DNA of 64,000 bases from assembly GCF_003254055.1 (NCBI RefSeq), contig NZ_QKZT01000004.1:186001-250000 (forward strand). The letters are read 5' to 3'. Source of the stretch: Algoriphagus chordae (GTDB taxonomy: Bacteria; Bacteroidota; Bacteroidia; Cytophagales; Cyclobacteriaceae). Below, one piece after another: positions 12,146 through 20,679 of this stretch (position 1 is its first letter; each line of letters starts with the position of its first letter). The translations under genes and the position numbers were made by a program. The notes beneath the pieces were generated by a model. It saw only the letters and a list, made by a program, of their open reading frames with translations. It was not told the DNA's origin and did not search any database.

Positions 12146-13480
12146 TTATTTTAGAAGATCTTCGAATGATTGTTCTATCTTCTTAAAATTAAATAGTTTG
12201 ATAGAGTTTTGCATTTTTTCATCTATTTCCTGAAGATTTAAATTACCTATACTTCCTTCATGGGAATGATTCAAATGCAGTTGATCTGGAGCGAAATTAT
12301 CTGACTCTATATCCATCCCAACTTGTTTGTAAGCATCTCTAAAAGGAGTGCCTTTCAGGACTAGCTCATTGACTACTTCAACAGAGAAAAGATGTTTATA
12401 AAATGGGTCTGCTAATATATTCTCTTTTACTTTAATTGAACTAAGCATGAAGCCAGTCATACGAAGGCAATTTTTCAAGGTTTCTATGCCAGGAAATATA
12501 TCCTCTTTGAGCAACTGCAGGTCTCGATGATATCCTGTGGTGGTATTGGTCAATAGCAATGCAATGGCATTGGGGATTGCTTGAATCTGATTGGTTTTAG
12601 CTCTGATTAGCTCAAATACATCAGGATTCTTCTTATGTGGCATTATACTACTTCCAGTAGTCAAATCATCAGGAAATCCTATAAAGGCAAAATGCTGATT
12701 CATAAAAATACAAACATCAGAAGCCAAGCGGTTTAGTGTTCCAGCCATTCCGGCCATCGCAAAAGATAAGGTACGCTCAGTTTTCCCTCGACTGTTTTGT
12801 GCATTTAGCACATTGTGATGTAGGTCCGCAAAACCAAGTAGTTCGGTAGTCATGGTTCTATTCAAAGGAAAACTTGAACCATAGCCTGCCGCAGAACCCA
12901 GCGGGTTTTTATTAGCTAGGTCAAAAGCTGCCTTCAGTAATCCCATGTCCTCTGATAAGCCTTCGGCAAAAGAGCTAAACCAAAGTCCAAACGAAGATGG
13001 CATTGCCAATTGTGTGTGGGTATATCCTGGCATCAGATCATTCTTGTGCTTTTCTGAAAGAGAAATAAGCAAATCGAATAAGCTAGTACATTCTTCAACA
13101 AGCTCCTTAATCGAATTTCTATAGTATAGCTTCAAATCAACTAGAACTTGATCATTGCGGCTTCTACCACTATGAAGTTTCTTGCCTACATCTCCATAGC
13201 GTTCTGTTAGCAAAAACTCCACCTGTGAATGGACATCTTCCACTCCCGGATCAATTTTGAAGTCGCCATTCTGTATCTCAATATATATTTGCTTTAAGCC
13301 TTGCTGAAGTATCTCATTTTCTTCTGCAGTCAGCAAGCCAATGGTGGATAACATCTCTGCATGAGCCATGGATCCTAGCACATCAAAGGGAGCTAGTAGT
13401 ATATCAAATTCAGGATCACGACCTATAGTAAAGGATTCTACTTCCTTTTTGCTTCCTGTTTCTTTTTGCCAAAGTTTCAT
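12146..13480 (-). CDS. argH: Argininosuccinate lyase ArgH
   Basis: This is the last step of arginine synthesis, splitting argininosuccinate into arginine and fumarate. The fumarase-superfamily signature GSSIMPHKKNPD is present, as are SGRSRNDQV and the N-terminal MKLWQKE. The 444-residue length is close to the family norm. It is the final gene of the eight-gene minus-strand arginine cluster, starting 2 bases after the M20 deacylase stop. Confidence 0.95.
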   Translation of the reverse strand: MKLWQKETGSKKEVESFTIGRDPEFDILLAPFDVLGSMAHAEMLSTIGLLTAEENEILQQGLKQIYIEIQNGDFKIDPGVEDVHSQVEFLLTERYGDVGKKLHSGRSRNDQVLVDLKLYYRNSIKELVEECTSLFDLLISLSEKHKNDLMPGYTHTQLAMPSSFGLWFSSFAEGLSEDMGLLKAAFDLANKNPLGSAAGYGSSFPLNRTMTTELLGFADLHHNVLNAQNSRGKTERTLSFAMAGMAGTLNRLASDVCIFMNQHFAFIGFPDDLTTGSSIMPHKKNPDVFELIRAKTNQIQAIPNAIALLLTNTTTGYHRDLQLLKEDIFPGIETLKNCLRMTGFMLSSIKVKENILADPFYKHLFSVEVVNELVLKGTPFRDAYKQVGMDIESDNFAPDQLHLNHSHEGSIGNLNLQEIDEKMQNSIKLFNFKKIEQSFEDLLK

Positions 13481-13482
13481 TT

Positions 13483-14568
13483 CTAAGTAGTTTGAGTAAG
13501 CATGTCTGCGTAGGTTTCAAGTATCTTGATATAGCCTTCTATGCCGTTCTGAATTTCGTTCAAATAAATATATTCATCTGCAGAATGTGATCTTGCTGAG
13601 TCACCAGGACCGATTTTGACAGATGGGTAGGGGATCAATGCCTGATCAGATAGGGTAGGACTGCCATAGGTTTTCTTGCCTAGTTTTTCTCCTACTTTCA
13701 ATATCAAATGACCTTCTGGTACGTGTGAAGATTGAAGTCTAAGTGATCGAGGGGTTAGCTCTGCACTTATGGAGCTTTTCAATTCCTCCAAAGCTTCTTC
13801 CAAAGAATAAGCATCAGTGACGCGGACGTCCAATACAAATTCACAAAGATCAGGTACAACATTATGCTGCTGTCCTGAATGAATAACAGTTGCCGAAACT
13901 TTAGTCTTTCCTAGGAATTGAGAGATCTTCTTGAACTCAAAATCCCTGATTTTTTGAAGATCACCCAGGGCTTCGTAGATAGCATTTATGCCTTCCTCAC
14001 GTGCTGCGTGTCCAGCTTTTCCCTTAACTTTTGCATCAATCACCATCAAGCCTTTTTCGGCCACGGCCATATCCATCAAAGTAGGTTCTCCGACGATAGT
14101 CAAATCACAGGGAGGAAGCTGATCTATAACTGAAGCTATTCCATTCTTACCCGAAATCTCCTCCTCGGCAGATGCAATCATTATCAGGTTGAATGGAAGA
14201 TCTTCTTTTTCTTGAAAATGGGAAAAGGCTGCCATGAGACTAACAAGTGGTCCTCCTGCGTCATTACTTCCTAATCCGAAGAGCTTTCCATCTTCCGTAA
14301 TTGCCTGAAAAGGATCTTTGGTGTAGCCAGCGTTTGGTTTAACTGTGTCGTGGTGGGAATTCAGCCAAATAGTTGGCTTATTTTTATCAAAGACATTTGC
14401 AAATGCCCAGATGTTATTTCCTGATTTGTGGACTTCTATGTTTCTAGCAGTGAAAAATTCTTCAATTATATCAGCAGTAGCACTTTCTTCCTTCGAATAA
14501 GATGGCGTTTCTATTAACTGAGATAGAAGTTGTACCGCATCATCATATAAACCCATCGTTAATTTCAA
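13483..14568 (-). CDS. M20 family deacylase (ArgE-like; predicted N-acylcitrulline deacylase)
   Basis: This is a zinc peptidase-fold amidohydrolase with the metal-binding blocks NSHHDTVKPN, GSNDAGGPLVSL and ASAEEEISGKNG, and a C-terminal GPGDSARSHSADEY. In this cluster carbamoylation is done on acylated ornithine. The acyl group should therefore be removed from N-acylcitrulline and not from acetylornithine. Acetyl versus succinyl is undecided from this gene, but the carbamoyltransferase next door points to succinyl. The 361-residue length is normal. Confidence 0.85.
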   Translation of the reverse strand: MKLTMGLYDDAVQLLSQLIETPSYSKEESATADIIEEFFTARNIEVHKSGNNIWAFANVFDKNKPTIWLNSHHDTVKPNAGYTKDPFQAITEDGKLFGLGSNDAGGPLVSLMAAFSHFQEKEDLPFNLIMIASAEEEISGKNGIASVIDQLPPCDLTIVGEPTLMDMAVAEKGLMVIDAKVKGKAGHAAREEGINAIYEALGDLQKIRDFEFKKISQFLGKTKVSATVIHSGQQHNVVPDLCEFVLDVRVTDAYSLEEALEELKSSISAELTPRSLRLQSSHVPEGHLILKVGEKLGKKTYGSPTLSDQALIPYPSVKIGPGDSARSHSADEYIYLNEIQNGIEGYIKILETYADMLTQTT

Positions 14569-14577
14569 TTTTGTTGT

Positions 14578-15378
14578 TTAGTAGAGGTCATATCGACTTC
14601 TCTCTATGGTTGTTCCAGAAAGCTTGCCTTTCGCTGCCAAATGAAGGTTCTCTGCTTTCCCGATCCAAACATGATTTACTCCCTTTTCTAATGCCTCAAA
14701 AGCATTGTCCAATTTGGGAATCATACCGGAGTGTATCACATTTTCTTTGCGAAGCTCCTCGTAGATATCCTCATTGATCATGGGTACAATGGAGGTTTCA
14801 TTCTTCTCATCTAGCAATACTCCACTTTTGTTAAAACAGAAATATAAATTAACCTGATGTTCCTTAGCAAGGCTGGTGGCTAGCGCAGAAGCTATACTAT
14901 CTGCATTTGTGTTTAATAACTGGCCTTTGGCGTTGTGGGTAATCGCATTGATTACCGGTAGTAAATTCCCTGAAAGTAAATGATCAATCAATTGGGTGTT
15001 AACAGTCTGTATATCACCAACAAATCCATAATCAATTCCTTTCACTGGACGTTTGATAGACTGTATGATATTGCCATCTGCACCACACATTCCTATCGCA
15101 TTTACTTTGAGCGCTTGGAGTTTGGCTACGATGTTTTTATTAATCAAACCAGCATACACCATCGTCACTACATCCAAGGTATCCTTGTCTGTAATTCTTC
15201 TCCCATCCACCATTTCGGGCATTACACCTAGAGATTCTCCAAAGCGGGAAGCCATGATCCCGCCTCCGTGAACCAAAATTTTGTGCCCGGGAAATTTGGC
15301 GAAAAGGGCTAAAAATTCATCTAGCTTTTCAGGAAAGTCGATGACATTGCCTCCGATTTTAATAATGCTAATTTTCAT
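14578..15378 (-). CDS. argB: N-acylglutamate kinase ArgB
   Basis: Phosphorylates N-acetyl- (or N-succinyl-) glutamate. It has the amino-acid kinase fold, with the start KISIIKIGGNVID, the substrate loop KILVHGGGIMASRFGE, and the C-terminal GMIPKLDNAFEALEKG. The 266-residue length is typical. It lies between the deacylase and the carbamoyltransferase. If the pathway is succinylated, as suggested by Val97 of the carbamoyltransferase, this kinase would accept N-succinylglutamate. Confidence 0.93.
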   Translation of the reverse strand: MKISIIKIGGNVIDFPEKLDEFLALFAKFPGHKILVHGGGIMASRFGESLGVMPEMVDGRRITDKDTLDVVTMVYAGLINKNIVAKLQALKVNAIGMCGADGNIIQSIKRPVKGIDYGFVGDIQTVNTQLIDHLLSGNLLPVINAITHNAKGQLLNTNADSIASALATSLAKEHQVNLYFCFNKSGVLLDEKNETSIVPMINEDIYEELRKENVIHSGMIPKLDNAFEALEKGVNHVWIGKAENLHLAAKGKLSGTTIERSRYDLY

Positions 15379-15391
15379 TGGGCGTAAGTCT

Positions 15392-16363
15392 TTATTTATT
15401 TCCTAACAAGTAGCTGATGGCTGCTTGAGCAGCGAATATTCTATTTTTGGCTTGGTGCTGTACCAAAGAGCGCTCCCCATCCAGAATCTCATCAGATAAC
15501 TCCAGATTTCTTCTCACAGGAAGGCAATGCATAACTTTAGCATTATTGGCATTCTCAAAATGATTTTCAGTAAGCATCCAAGATGAATCTGTAGATAGAA
15601 TCTTACCGTAATCATTGAAAGATGACCAATTCTTAACATACACAAAATCAGCATCCTCTAATGCTTTACTTTGATTATATTCTATGGTCGCACCTTTGGT
15701 GAATTCCTCATCCAATTCATAACCTACAGGATGAGTAATCGTGAGATCATGATCCATTCCAAGGGTCCATTCTGCAAAGGAATTGGCAACTGCATGAGGA
15801 ATAGCTTTAATATGCGGACCCCAAGTCAAGACTACTTTCGGCTTCTTTTTGCCAGCCCAATTCTCTCTGATCGTGATCTGATCGGCAAGACTTTGAAGTG
15901 GATGTCGCGTGGCAGATTCCAAACTTACCACTGGAACTCCAGAATACTTTACAAATTGAGAAAATACAAAATCACTTGTGTCTTCTTCCTTATTTGTCAA
16001 AGAAGGAAATGCACGAATCGCCAGAATATCAAAGTATGAACCTAAAACAGCAGCAGCATCTTTGATATGCTCCACCGTACCACGGTTCATGACAGCTCCA
16101 TCCTGCATCTCCAGCGCCCAGCCTTCCTTGTCCATATTCAGCACAATTGGTTCCATACCTAGGTTCAATGCTGCTAGCTGAGTAGAAACACGTGTCCTAA
16201 GTGAAGGATTTAGGAAAATGCATCCTATGCGTTTTCCAGCGCCTTTTGCTTGATCTAGACTTGGATTGGCCTTGTATAAAAGTGCTTTCTCGATTAACTG
16301 GTTGCCCAGGTCGAAAGATTCAAATTTTGTAAAATGCTGTAGTGGCTCGATAATGTTTGCCAT
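15392..16363 (-). CDS. N-acylornithine carbamoyltransferase (predicted N-succinylornithine type)
   Basis: The carbamoyl-phosphate motif SLRTR lies at residues 54-58. TRHPLQSLAD and the C-terminal MHCLPVRRNLELSD, in place of the HCLP.H of ordinary OTCase, place it with the acylornithine enzymes. Aligned by eye to the Bacteroides fragilis succinyl enzyme, Val97 (in RGTVEHI) falls on Pro90, which corresponds to Glu92 of the Xanthomonas acetyl enzyme. Published mutagenesis found that E92V (also P, S, A) turns the acetyl enzyme into a succinyl enzyme. I therefore predict N-succinylornithine as substrate. Length 323 residues. Confidence 0.88.
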   Translation of the reverse strand: MANIIEPLQHFTKFESFDLGNQLIEKALLYKANPSLDQAKGAGKRIGCIFLNPSLRTRVSTQLAALNLGMEPIVLNMDKEGWALEMQDGAVMNRGTVEHIKDAAAVLGSYFDILAIRAFPSLTNKEEDTSDFVFSQFVKYSGVPVVSLESATRHPLQSLADQITIRENWAGKKKPKVVLTWGPHIKAIPHAVANSFAEWTLGMDHDLTITHPVGYELDEEFTKGATIEYNQSKALEDADFVYVKNWSSFNDYGKILSTDSSWMLTENHFENANNAKVMHCLPVRRNLELSDEILDGERSLVQHQAKNRIFAAQAAISYLLGNK

Positions 16364-16366
16364 TTG

Positions 16367-17512
16367 TTAACTGGAAGGGGATTGACTTAAGATTTCTTTT
16401 AATGCGGTTAAAAACGAATTTAACTGATTCCACTCGATATTTAAAGGAGGCAAGAGTCTTATCGTGTTCTTGCCAGCTGCACTTCCTGTGAACATGTGAT
16501 ATTTTTTCACCAATTCTGAGCGAACAGGGCCAGCTTCCCGATCCAGATCAATACCAATAATCAAACCTGTACCACGAATAGCCCTGATTCCAGGGATTTC
16601 TTTCAATTCGGTCAAAAGCTTTTCACCAAGTTTAGTAGCATTTTCCAGAAGGTTTTCTTTTTCAATAACTTCCACTACTGCCAGACCTGCCGCACAGGCA
16701 AGGTGATTGCCTCCAAAAGTAGTTCCAAGTAATCCGTAACTGGCTTTGAACTCCGGTGAGATTAAGATTCCACCGATTGGAAATCCATTCCCCATACCCT
16801 TTGCCATACTGATGATATCTGGTTTAAGCCCGTCAACCAACTGATGCGCAAAGAATTTCCCAGTTCTGCCAAAACCTGACTGTACCTCATCCAAAATCAA
16901 TTTGGCATTGTATTGCTTTGCCAGAGAGGCTAAACCTAGAAGAAAGTCTGAACTAGGAACCTGAATACCGTTTACTCCTTGGATTCCTTCGATGATTATT
17001 CCAGCGATCTCCTTTGCCTTCAAAGCATCTTCTACAGCAGCCAAGTCCTCCCAAGGAAGAATATGAAAATCATCTCGTTCATTACAAGGAGCAACAATTT
17101 TTGGATTATCTGTCAAAGCTACTGCACCAGATGTTCTGCCATGAAAACCTCCAGAAAAAGCAATAAAACCTGATTTTCCTGTTGCGAAGGAAGCTAGCTT
17201 GATTGCATTCTCATTGGCTTCAGCACCTGAGTTACAAAGGAAAAGCTGGTACTCAGGATAGCCTGAAAGTTCGCCTAGTTTTTCAGCATATTCCTTTTGG
17301 ATAGGAATCTGAATGGAATTGGAGTAAAAAGCGATCTGATCCAATTGATCCTTGATGCGCTTTAGGTAGTGTGGATGTGTGTGACCAATGGAAATCACTG
17401 CGTGACCACCATATAAATCTATATATTCTTGTCCTTGATCGTCCCAAAGTTTAGCGCCATCAGCTTTTGCGATGGTAACTGGGATGAGAGGATATACATC
17501 AAATAAGTTCAT
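16367..17512 (-). CDS. argD: Acylornithine aminotransferase ArgD
   Basis: This class III PLP aminotransferase converts N-acyl-glutamate semialdehyde to N-acylornithine. I start it at the ATG at 17512 (MNLFDVYPLIPVTIAKADG). The in-frame ATG at 17563 would add 17 atypical residues from low-complexity intergenic DNA. The PLP lysine lies in ISMAKGMGNGFPIGG and the Asp in LILDEVQSGFGRTGK. Length is 381. It follows argC with a 157-base gap, the only sizeable gap in the operon apart from the one before argG. Confidence 0.93.
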   Translation of the reverse strand: MNLFDVYPLIPVTIAKADGAKLWDDQGQEYIDLYGGHAVISIGHTHPHYLKRIKDQLDQIAFYSNSIQIPIQKEYAEKLGELSGYPEYQLFLCNSGAEANENAIKLASFATGKSGFIAFSGGFHGRTSGAVALTDNPKIVAPCNERDDFHILPWEDLAAVEDALKAKEIAGIIIEGIQGVNGIQVPSSDFLLGLASLAKQYNAKLILDEVQSGFGRTGKFFAHQLVDGLKPDIISMAKGMGNGFPIGGILISPEFKASYGLLGTTFGGNHLACAAGLAVVEVIEKENLLENATKLGEKLLTELKEIPGIRAIRGTGLIIGIDLDREAGPVRSELVKKYHMFTGSAAGKNTIRLLPPLNIEWNQLNSFLTALKEILSQSPSS

Positions 17513-17669
17513 AAGAATTGACGAATTACGATTGACGAAATACGAGGTAATTCTGTGCCTCATAGATCTATTTCAAAATTGAAGAATATTGAATGCTGAA
17601 TGATGAACACTTAATTTTGAAGTGACTATCACACAGTCTTGAATCTTATGTCTAAAGTCTAATATCTAA

Positions 17670-18638
17670 TTAAAACCCTATACTTTTTAGATTCAAGCCC
17701 ATCCTCTCTTCAAGTCCAAATGCCAAATTGTAATTCTGAACTGCCTGTCCAGAGGCTCCTTTGAGTAAGTTGTCAATGGCGGAGTAAATCACCAATTGTC
17801 CAGCTTCTTTTTGTACGTGAACGATACACTTATTTGTGTTCACTGCTTGCTTCATATCGATGTCGATATCAGAAACGTGAGTAAAAGCAGCGTTTTTATA
17901 GAACTCCTTGTAGGCAGCTACAGCTTCTTCTTGAGTTCCATCAAAAGGGAAATAAGCTGTAATCCAAATTCCTCTAGGGAAATTGCCACGGTATGGAACA
18001 AAGAGCATTTCAGATGAAAAGCTAGCATTGAGCTGCTTGAAAGTCTGATTAATCTCCTTTAGATGCTGGTGTGTAAAAAGCTTATAAACAGACATATTTG
18101 AAGATCTGTAGCTGAAGTGGGATGTCTCAGCTAGTTTCTTGCCTGCACCCGTACTTCCAGTGACTCCAGAGATATTTATTGTGTCTTTCACCCAGTCTTT
18201 TGCGATAGCAGGAAGTAGTGCTAATTGAATGCCTGAAGCAAAGCAGCCGGGATTAGCAATCTTTTTAGCAGTCTTAATTTTCGCAGCATTTACTTCTGGA
18301 AGACCATAAGTAAAGCCATTGGACTCGTCACGGAAATCAGTAGACAAATCGATCAAAACTGTCTCAGGAGAGAAGGAGTGTTGCTCCAAAAACCCTTTGG
18401 TTTGGCCATGTGGCAATCCCAAGAATACAGCTTCTATTCCCTCAGTTTGTACTTCGTCAGTAAAAATGAGATCACAATCCCCGATGAGGTCAGGGTGAAC
18501 CTCAGCTACTTTTTTGCCCTTCTGGCTATTGCTATGTACGTAGACCAGTTCGCAAGCAGGATGATGAACTAGCAGACGAAGTAATTCGCCACCAGTATAG
18601 CCTGCTGCCCCTATGATCGCTGTTTTAATTTTAGTCAT
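17670..18638 (-). CDS. argC: N-acylglutamyl-phosphate reductase ArgC
   Basis: This NADPH-dependent reductase makes the glutamate semialdehyde derivative. The N-terminal Rossmann motif is GAAGYTGGELLRLL, and the active-site Cys132 lies in ANPGCFASG. STDFRD and the H-containing KLFTHQHLKEI block are also present. Length 322 is normal. It overlaps the 3' end of argG by 8 bases, so the two are translationally coupled. Confidence 0.95.
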   Translation of the reverse strand: MTKIKTAIIGAAGYTGGELLRLLVHHPACELVYVHSNSQKGKKVAEVHPDLIGDCDLIFTDEVQTEGIEAVFLGLPHGQTKGFLEQHSFSPETVLIDLSTDFRDESNGFTYGLPEVNAAKIKTAKKIANPGCFASGIQLALLPAIAKDWVKDTINISGVTGSTGAGKKLAETSHFSYRSSNMSVYKLFTHQHLKEINQTFKQLNASFSSEMLFVPYRGNFPRGIWITAYFPFDGTQEEAVAAYKEFYKNAAFTHVSDIDIDMKQAVNTNKCIVHVQKEAGQLVIYSAIDNLLKGASGQAVQNYNLAFGLEERMGLNLKSIGF

Positions 18639-19824
18639 TGTCAGCGTTAACTTTATGGAAAATCGAGGTTTGGTTGCCCAAAATACGTGTGAAACCTTTC
18701 ACGTCTTCAGCTGTATAGCCTTTGTTCATTTCTCCGTAGCTACCAAACTTGTTGGACATCAGATCATGATTAGAAGTGATTCCAAGCAAAGTGAATCGGA
18801 ATGGCTGAAGCAAAACCCGAACTTCACCAGTCACATAAGTCTGCGTGCTGGCCATGAACTCTTCCATGTTTCTCATCACTGGATCTAGGTAATGTCCCTC
18901 GTGAAGATGATTACCATAGAACTCAGCCAATTGATTTTTCCAGAAAAGCTGCCACTTGGTAAGTGTGTGCTTCTCCAGCAACTGATGTCCTTTGATGATG
19001 ATCAAGGGAGCAGCAGCTTCGAAACCAACTCTGCCTTTGATTCCGATAATCGTATCACCGACGTGAATGTCACGGCCGATTCCATAAGGAGCTGCCAAAG
19101 CTTGGAGCGCCTGAATAGCTTCTACCGAATCCTCATACTTTTTACCATCCACACCTTTCAATTCACCTTTTTCGAAGGAAAGAATCAATTCTAAAGGCTC
19201 AGTTTCCGTAGCTTGGATAGGCCAAGCTTCTTCAGGAAGGTAATCGGAAGAGGTTAGTGTTTCTTTTCCTCCTACAGAAGTTCCCCAGATTCCCTTATTA
19301 ATAGAATAAGCAGCTTTCTCGAAATTCATCGAAACACCATGCTTTTTCAAGTATTCAATTTCTTCAGCGCGACTCAGTTTCAGGTCACGGATAGGAGTGA
19401 CGATCTCGATATCTGGAACGATCGTTTGAAAAATCATATCAAATCGAACTTGATCATTTCCAGCTCCAGTAGAACCATGAGCTACCGCTTTTGCTCCAAT
19501 TGATTTGGCGTATTCAGCCAGTGATTTGGCCTGAAGAATACGCTCCGCGGAAACAGATAGGGGGTAAGTTTGGTTTTTCAATACATTTCCGAATACCAAA
19601 TACTTGATCACTTCATTATAATAGGTGTCCATCACATGAAGTGTTTTGAAAGAAGCTACGCCTAAGCCTTTTGCTCTTTCTTCAATATCTGTCAATTCTT
19701 CTTCAGAAAACCCGCCTGTGTTTACCAAAACGGCATGCACTTCATATCCTAGTTCTTTGGAAAGGTGCAAAGCACAAAATGTGGTATCCAAGCCTCCACT
19801 GTAGGCTAAAACTATTTTTTTCAT
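18631..19824 (-). CDS. argG: Argininosuccinate synthase ArgG
   Basis: Condenses citrulline and aspartate using ATP. The PP-loop AYSGGLDTTFC lies at the N-terminus, and AHGSTGAGNDQVRFD and LKSRAEE-like segments follow. Length 397 is as expected. In Bacteroidota argG commonly opens the arginine gene run, right after the GNAT gene, as here. The 159-base gap to that gene contains no obvious terminator. Confidence 0.95.
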   Translation of the reverse strand: MKKIVLAYSGGLDTTFCALHLSKELGYEVHAVLVNTGGFSEEELTDIEERAKGLGVASFKTLHVMDTYYNEVIKYLVFGNVLKNQTYPLSVSAERILQAKSLAEYAKSIGAKAVAHGSTGAGNDQVRFDMIFQTIVPDIEIVTPIRDLKLSRAEEIEYLKKHGVSMNFEKAAYSINKGIWGTSVGGKETLTSSDYLPEEAWPIQATETEPLELILSFEKGELKGVDGKKYEDSVEAIQALQALAAPYGIGRDIHVGDTIIGIKGRVGFEAAAPLIIIKGHQLLEKHTLTKWQLFWKNQLAEFYGNHLHEGHYLDPVMRNMEEFMASTQTYVTGEVRVLLQPFRFTLLGITSNHDLMSNKFGSYGEMNKGYTAEDVKGFTRILGNQTSIFHKVNADND

Positions 19825-19983: not shown

Positions 19984-20679
19984 TTATAGAAAGATGCTCG
20001 AAATGCTGTCCTTAGACTTGTTCAATTTAAGCATCACGTATTTCTTTAATCTTACCCAGCGATCAAATAATTTGAGATCTTTTTTGAAATTCTCCCGGAG
20101 CGCCAACTCTTGCGTATGATTTCTCTTGGAATTAGGATCGTAAAGCATGGCTGTACATAGGCAGTTTTGCCTGTTTTTACTCACCAAAATCTCATAATTG
20201 ACGCAACTTTGGCAGCCTTTCCAGAACTCATTATCATCAGTCAAATCAGAATAGGAAACAGGAATGTAACCTAACTCAGAGTTGATTTTCATCACCGCAG
20301 CTCCTGTGGTCAATCCAAATATTTTAGAATCTGGATATTTCAATCGGCTAAGCTTGAATACTTCATTCTTGATCAAGCGCGCCAATCCGTACTTTCTGAA
20401 TTCAGGTGAAACAATCAAGCCGGAGTTTGCAACGTACTTACCATGACCCCAAGCCTCAATATAGCAGAAGCCAGCCCACTTGCCATCAGAAGTCAATGCG
20501 ATTACTGCTTTCCCTTCTTCCATTTTGGTCTCTACATAAGCAGGGCTACGTTTGGCTATACCTGTGCCACGAGCTTTTGCAGAGTTTTCCATCTCATCTG
20601 TGATCTGAGTGGAATATACCGTGTGAGAAGGATTTGCTACAATTATCTGGAAAGAAATGTTATCCATTAGGGATTGCAT
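19984..20679 (-). CDS. GNAT acyltransferase, candidate N-acylglutamate synthase of the arginine operon
   Basis: This 231-residue protein has a GNAT core: VIALTSDGKWAGFCYIE, then VANSGLIVSPEFRKYGLARLIKNEVF (acyl-CoA loop and following helix, about residues 92-117), and FGLTTGAAVMKINSELGYIPV. A Cys-rich tail (KGCQSC ... NCLC) follows. No ArgA or ArgJ is seen in the cluster, and GNATs in this position have been proposed as the missing first enzyme, acylating glutamate. That role is inference from context. A metal- or redox-related function for the cysteines is possible. The second in-frame ATG (residue 5) is an alternative start. Confidence 0.75.
   Translation of the reverse strand: MQSLMDNISFQIIVANPSHTVYSTQITDEMENSAKARGTGIAKRSPAYVETKMEEGKAVIALTSDGKWAGFCYIEAWGHGKYVANSGLIVSPEFRKYGLARLIKNEVFKLSRLKYPDSKIFGLTTGAAVMKINSELGYIPVSYSDLTDDNEFWKGCQSCVNYEILVSKNRQNCLCTAMLYDPNSKRNHTQELALRENFKKDLKLFDRWVRLKKYVMLKLNKSKDSISSIFL

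Follow-up and report, generated by a model that had tools for sequence, protein, structure and literature searches.

The gene at 15392..16363 (minus strand) of the window, by which the whole analysed stretch of 64,000 nucleotides of Algoriphagus chordae DNA is meant, appears to encode an N-succinyl-L-ornithine carbamoyltransferase (SOTCase) that would make N-succinylcitrulline; on sequence and modelled fold, we put the probability of this reading at roughly 90%. A succinyl-type enzyme within a succinyl-type arginine cluster, as proposed in the preliminary description, is thus the best reading, carried by all three diagnostic positions and by greater nearness to SOTCase in both sequence and fold. 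The inference was right, whereas the novelty attached to it was not: enzyme and pathway are already known and are typical for Bacteroidota. As both the route and Val as a succinyl residue are already present in PMC7311316, the window enzyme is a routine instance of what has been published. Its value lies in adding one more typical case of the pathway and in correcting the idea that Pro is what succinyl enzymes of Bacteroidota normally carry.

Identity and specificity residues of the carbamoyltransferase

The feature, for which the preliminary description names no strand, is one complete ORF (323 aa, with stop) on the minus strand; the plus strand of the same interval holds many stops. All the transcarbamylase motifs are present, namely SLRT at 54-57 (SxRT), HPLQ at 154-157 (HPxQ) and HCLP at 279-282 (HxLP). 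In phmmer searches, the top PDB matches were entries of the Bacteroides fragilis SOTCase (1js1, 2fg6 and 2g7m; E 3.5e-86 to 4e-86), and chains of N-acetylornithine carbamoyltransferase (AOTCase) matched at E 9.4e-50 and weaker. Among named organisms, Algoriphagus species come nearest (96% identity for A. aquimarinus DSM 23399), and the counterpart in Echinicola arenosa is 74% identical.

The predicted fold gave the same picture. The AlphaFold2 model, built from 35 aligned sequences, had a mean pLDDT of 88.0 and a pTM of 0.89, with pLDDT below 50 at residues 90-96, the loop directly before Val97; this local uncertainty of the model weighs against the succinyl reading. Its best PDB matches were the B. 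fragilis SOTCase entries (Z 42.4-43.2, 43-44% identity, 313-316 residues), the Z of 43.2 to 2g7m and 2fg6 covering 315-316 of the 323 residues at an rmsd of 2.2-2.3. AOTCase chains came second (Z 38.7-39.5, 33-34% identity) and ornithine carbamoyltransferases (OTCases) third (Z 34.1 and below); Foldseek likewise ranked SOTCase first and AOTCase second. With the B. fragilis enzyme, the window enzyme shares the overall fold as predicted, the carbamoyl phosphate (CP) site, the equivalents of His176, Arg278, Lys236 and Glu142, and Pro at the Asn185 site, but it differs in having Val97 for Pro90, Lys186 for Arg178 and Glu288 for Ile282. With the Xanthomonas campestris AOTCase (3kzc and its mutants), it shares the family, 33-34% identity and a Lys at the place of Lys182, but carries Val, Pro and Glu in place of the wild-type Glu92, Asn185 and Lys302 (PMC4581275).

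The loop at the acetyl/succinyl site reads MNRGTVEHIKDA, and Val97 (codon 16073..16075, minus strand, reckoned from the ORF) was aligned by MAFFT with B. fragilis Pro90 and X. campestris residue 92, as the preliminary description had placed it. This alignment comprised the B. fragilis SOTCase (1js1), a single AOTCase chain of X. campestris and 232 proteins from the loci, among which the window's own gene appears twice and the aspartate enzyme of the genome (L001) is also counted. For X. campestris, the row used is that of the E92V mutant (3l06), wild-type Glu92 being taken from the titles of the PDB mutants and from PMC4581275. Because the two residues after Val97, Glu and His, are each identical in 231 of the 232 rows (one row being gapped), the register of the alignment at Val97 is beyond doubt, and no Glu occupies the Glu92 position.

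According to PMC4581275, AOTCases are marked by Glu92, Asn185 and Lys302, while SOTCases have A/S/P/V/Q, P and V/I/E at the same three sites. The window enzyme has Val97, Pro189 (codon 15797..15799, minus strand; X. campestris Asn185, B. fragilis Pro181) and Glu288 (codon 15500..15502, minus strand; X. campestris Lys302, B. fragilis Ile282) at the first, second and third specificity positions, so that three out of three are succinyl-type by the published rule and none of the AOTCase trio is present. The residues that the two enzymes have in common for carbamoyl phosphate and the second substrate (list from PMC4581275) are kept, i.e., Ser54, Arg56, Thr57, Trp82, Arg117, Glu149, His154, Gln157, Lys244, Cys280, Leu281 and Arg308. 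Among the succinyl anchors of B. fragilis, His176, Arg178 and Arg278 (PMC4581275), the first and last are retained (His184 and Arg284), but the place of Arg178 is taken by Lys186, the residue found in the acetyl enzyme (X. campestris Lys182), which counts against the succinyl reading. This objection is weakened by Lys being the commoner form at the anchor position across the phylum (114 of 150 sequences, as against 33 with Arg).

The mechanism is known from B. fragilis, and the genetics from Bacteroides, Echinicola and Pedobacter (PMC4581275, PMC7311316). In the window enzyme, the short side chain of Val97 would accommodate the longer succinyl tail, which Glu92 keeps out in the acetyl enzyme, and His184, Lys186 and Arg284 would hold the succinyl group as their B. 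fragilis counterparts do. The loop bearing residue 92 reaches in from the neighbouring subunit. The E92P, E92S, E92V and E92A mutants on which the preliminary description relied do exist as PDB entries (3l04, 3l05, 3l06 and 3l02) with titles naming a complex with 'N-succinyl-L-nor...', and the single-residue switch from acetyl to succinyl is cited in PMC7311316. The PDB also holds K302E, K302A and K302R mutants of the X. campestris enzyme with ligand, Glu288 lying at this Lys302 site.

The residue at the specificity site was further counted across the phylum, from which 395 genomes had been drawn evenly; 141 of them had a match with E no higher than 2.6e-81, and the 150 sequences aligned were the best listed matches, own gene included, nine being more distant (37-39% identity). 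Among these best 150, the site held A in 47, V in 45, S in 32, T in 11, Q in 10, P in 3, and I and G in one each, with Glu in none. Since T, I and G (13/150) lie outside the published succinyl list, the rule leaves some rows uncovered. When 152 rows were placed in a FastTree tree, Pro was restricted to a clade of six rows that includes B. fragilis, and the window enzyme fell in a 45-row clade in which 40 have Val; at least seven changes are required to account for Val against all other states. In a second collection, V/P/E occupied the three positions in 74 of the 80 nearest loci. By these counts, Val belongs to the two most frequent states and Pro is exceptional, and the earlier view of Val as a departure from a Pro norm does not stand. 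Although all 45 Val rows of the 150 carry Glu at the Lys302 site, covariation of Val97 and Glu288 was rejected: only four independent pairs lay on supported branches (sign test, p 0.5), and the pairing is thus mostly shared descent.

The eight-gene arginine cluster

In reading direction, the cluster runs from 20679 down to 12146 as GNAT, argG, argC, argD, carbamoyltransferase, argB, M20 deacylase and argH; all eight genes share the minus strand, and neighbours are 2 to 159 bases apart except for one overlapping pair. The GNAT protein (19984..20679; PF00583 just below cut-off) is a probable N-succinylglutamate synthase by analogy with BT3761 (PMC7311316). It is followed by argG for argininosuccinate synthase (18631..19824; PF00764/PF20979, with TIGR00032 at 251.7 bits, below the 268.2 cut-off), argC for acylglutamyl-phosphate reductase (17670..18638; TIGR01850 at 287.8 bits, above cut-off) and an argD-type acylornithine aminotransferase gene (16367..17563; PF00202, with TIGR00707 at 347.7 bits, below the 410.05 cut-off). 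Beyond the carbamoyltransferase gene lies argB (14578..15378; TIGR00761 at 192.2 bits, above cut-off), encoding an acylglutamate kinase that would probably phosphorylate N-succinylglutamate. The M20 deacylase (13483..14568; PF01546/PF07687, TIGR01910 below cut-off) is a probable N-succinylcitrulline desuccinylase by analogy with BT3549 (PMC7311316), and argH for argininosuccinate lyase (12146..13480; TIGR00838 at 331.9 bits, above cut-off) closes the run. The genes argG and argC overlap by 8 bases (18631-18638), which suggests coupled translation.

The full order and orientation recur in 63 of the 80 nearest related loci; the remaining 17, several of them short records, hold parts of the eight-gene order, and one locus (L044) has the carbamoyltransferase alone within 12,963 bases. 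A GNAT match upstream of argG was found in 68 of the 80.

A succinylated arginine route has been described for Bacteroidetes, with S, P, A or V as the succinyl residues, and mutant fitness in Echinicola vietnamensis and Pedobacter indicates that most candidate pathway genes are needed without arginine (PMC7311316). This route (GapMind, PMC7311316) comprises GNAT, ArgB, ArgC, ArgD, carbamoyltransferase, deacylase, ArgG and ArgH, and the window holds all these genes in one run. From gene order and published genetics, we infer that succinyl compounds would be the substrates of GNAT, ArgC, ArgD and the M20 protein. The latter would deacylate N-succinylcitrulline to citrulline, from which ArgG and ArgH would complete arginine.

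The acetyl-type gene set and alternative substrates

The host genome (5.19 Mb, 45 contigs, 99.97% complete) differs from the published succinyl route in adding an acetyl-type run elsewhere. This tight argB-argD-argC-argJ run lies outside the window (genome G000, contig C7; locus L236, 13587 down to 9144). Its ArgJ was matched by PF01960 at E 1.6e-138, a search whose controls matched in 10 of 14 known genomes, and retains the stretch KGSGMIHPNMATML, which we take to be the self-cleavage and catalytic site. Each of the four proteins exceeds one or more NCBIfam cut-offs (ArgJ 450.9 against 351, ArgC 435.4 against 233.6, ArgD 500.6 against 410.05 and ArgB 223.4 against 151.3 bits); the ArgC and ArgB of the window pass the same cut-offs, but its ArgD (347.7) does not. 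Between the two sets, identity is 29% for ArgB, 37% for ArgC and 38% for ArgD. A search of the genome for another ornithine-type carbamoyltransferase found none, PF02729 and TIGR00658 each matching the window carbamoyltransferase and the aspartate enzyme only, a result that speaks for the SOTCase reading.

Since the genome is apparently also able to make N-acetylornithine, the carbamoyltransferase might use both substrates, i.e., N-succinylornithine from its own cluster and N-acetylornithine from the argBDCJ run, with the M20 protein removing either tag. Such dual use is improbable. Both pools are predicted in the genome and no ornithine carbamoyltransferase was found, which would suit it, but ArgJ, by removing acetyl from ornithine, would compete. 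Furthermore, an additional 26 loci of the host family, drawn from genomes with and without ArgJ, all read Val/Pro/Glu, so that the site is unchanged by the presence of the second run.

A slightly poorer case can be made for an AOTCase acting in a cluster that runs on acetyl compounds. The match of Lys186 to X. campestris Lys182 and the acetyl-type run in the same genome agree with it, as does the nearest NCBIfam equivalog, which is N-acetylornithine carbamoyltransferase, though at 268.8 against a cut-off of 288 and hence below it. The reading was dropped, and we consider it very unlikely, given that the markers Glu92, Asn185 and Lys302 are all missing and that SOTCase is nearer by sequence and fold; the published genetics of Echinicola (PMC7311316), whose member E. 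arenosa has the 74% identical carbamoyltransferase, also argue against it. A plain OTCase was dismissed on a TIGR00658 score of 122.4 bits (curated cut-off 280.85) and on the lower rank of OTCases in the fold comparison.

With an argBDCJ run present but no ornithine carbamoyltransferase found, the acetyl set should end in free ornithine. We regard it as an even proposition that two parallel routes lead from glutamate towards ornithine in one cytoplasm and are separated by their acyl tag, the succinyl route proceeding to citrulline and arginine without release of ornithine and the acetyl route delivering free ornithine for another purpose. If true, the use of succinyl instead of acetyl would insulate two pathways that share their chemical steps, and the second set could matter more than the window enzyme.

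The acyl pocket of the kinase, with Arg as against Leu, Gln or His beside a substrate-binding Arg, would help to separate the two routes. In Escherichia coli ArgB, Arg66 is substrate-binding (PMC3236213) and is adjoined by Leu65; the window argB reads GRRIT where the E. coli enzyme reads GLRVT. The two ArgB proteins of the host have Arg (14578-15378, succinyl cluster) and Leu (L236, 12772-13587, acetyl set) at the Leu65 site. Among ArgB matches, some genomes being counted twice, Arg occupies this site in 129 of 129 linked to SOTCase as against 1 of 58 linked to ArgJ, the latter having mainly Gln (27), His (18), Leu (9) and Met (2). An Arg at this position could contact the succinyl carboxylate, or the sorting may reflect descent alone. 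Nine other ArgB columns also separate the two groups fully, and the Leu-to-Arg change was therefore rejected as independent evidence.

ArgJ alongside SOTCase and the use of free ornithine

The main text of PMC7311316 mentions ArgJ once, as not identified in B. thetaiotaomicron, and at the level of titles and abstracts no report of ArgJ beside the succinyl route was found among the open-access papers listed. Across 295 genomes of the host family, which from its named relatives should be Cyclobacteriaceae, ArgJ was matched in 69, spread over 25 of 84 genera and including 4 of 17 genomes within the genus. Each of the 69 also has a match to the window enzyme with E no higher than 2.3e-97 (the two family tables being paired by hand, and the specificity residue being read in the 26 further loci and the alignment loci only), so that a strict exclusion of ArgJ and SOTCase is rejected. 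A third carbamoyltransferase match at E 0.001 was absent in 67 of the 69 and present in two (G429 and G648). Among the 69 ArgJ matches, that in G556 is weak (26% identity), that in G535 is distant (44%), and those in G464 and G431 are each split into two pieces. Of 22 genomes reached via named loci, which partly overlap the 295, 11 have ArgJ, namely A. aquimarinus (two), A. resistens, Rhodonellum psychrophilum, three Belliella, Aquiflexum lacus, two Cyclobacterium and Cecembia lonarensis; no ArgJ match was found in Echinicola arenosa. In the phylum draw, ArgJ occurs in 2 of 141 genomes with a strong SOTCase match as against 153 of 254 others (Fisher; matched by hand, the genomes being related).

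No clear consumer of ornithine emerged as a conserved neighbour in 21 argJ loci (host genome and 20 relatives), where argJ and argC are present in all 21, argD in 19 and argB in 18, and the next families in 8, 6, 5 and 5. Possible users elsewhere in the genome are an ornithine aminotransferase (659.4 bits) and an ornithine cyclodeaminase family protein, neither being tied to argBDCJ; as ProB is present, proline need not derive from ornithine. A PF13444 protein beside an acyltransferase-like ORF, likewise not tied to argBDCJ, is another possible user, and the pair could presumably make amino-acid lipids. Near argBDCJ in L338-L341 and L343 lie genes for an epimerase, an FAD oxidase and an aldehyde dehydrogenase, accompanied in four of these loci by a dihydrodipicolinate synthase-like gene; judged from family features, we take these neighbours to resemble a hydroxyproline breakdown set.
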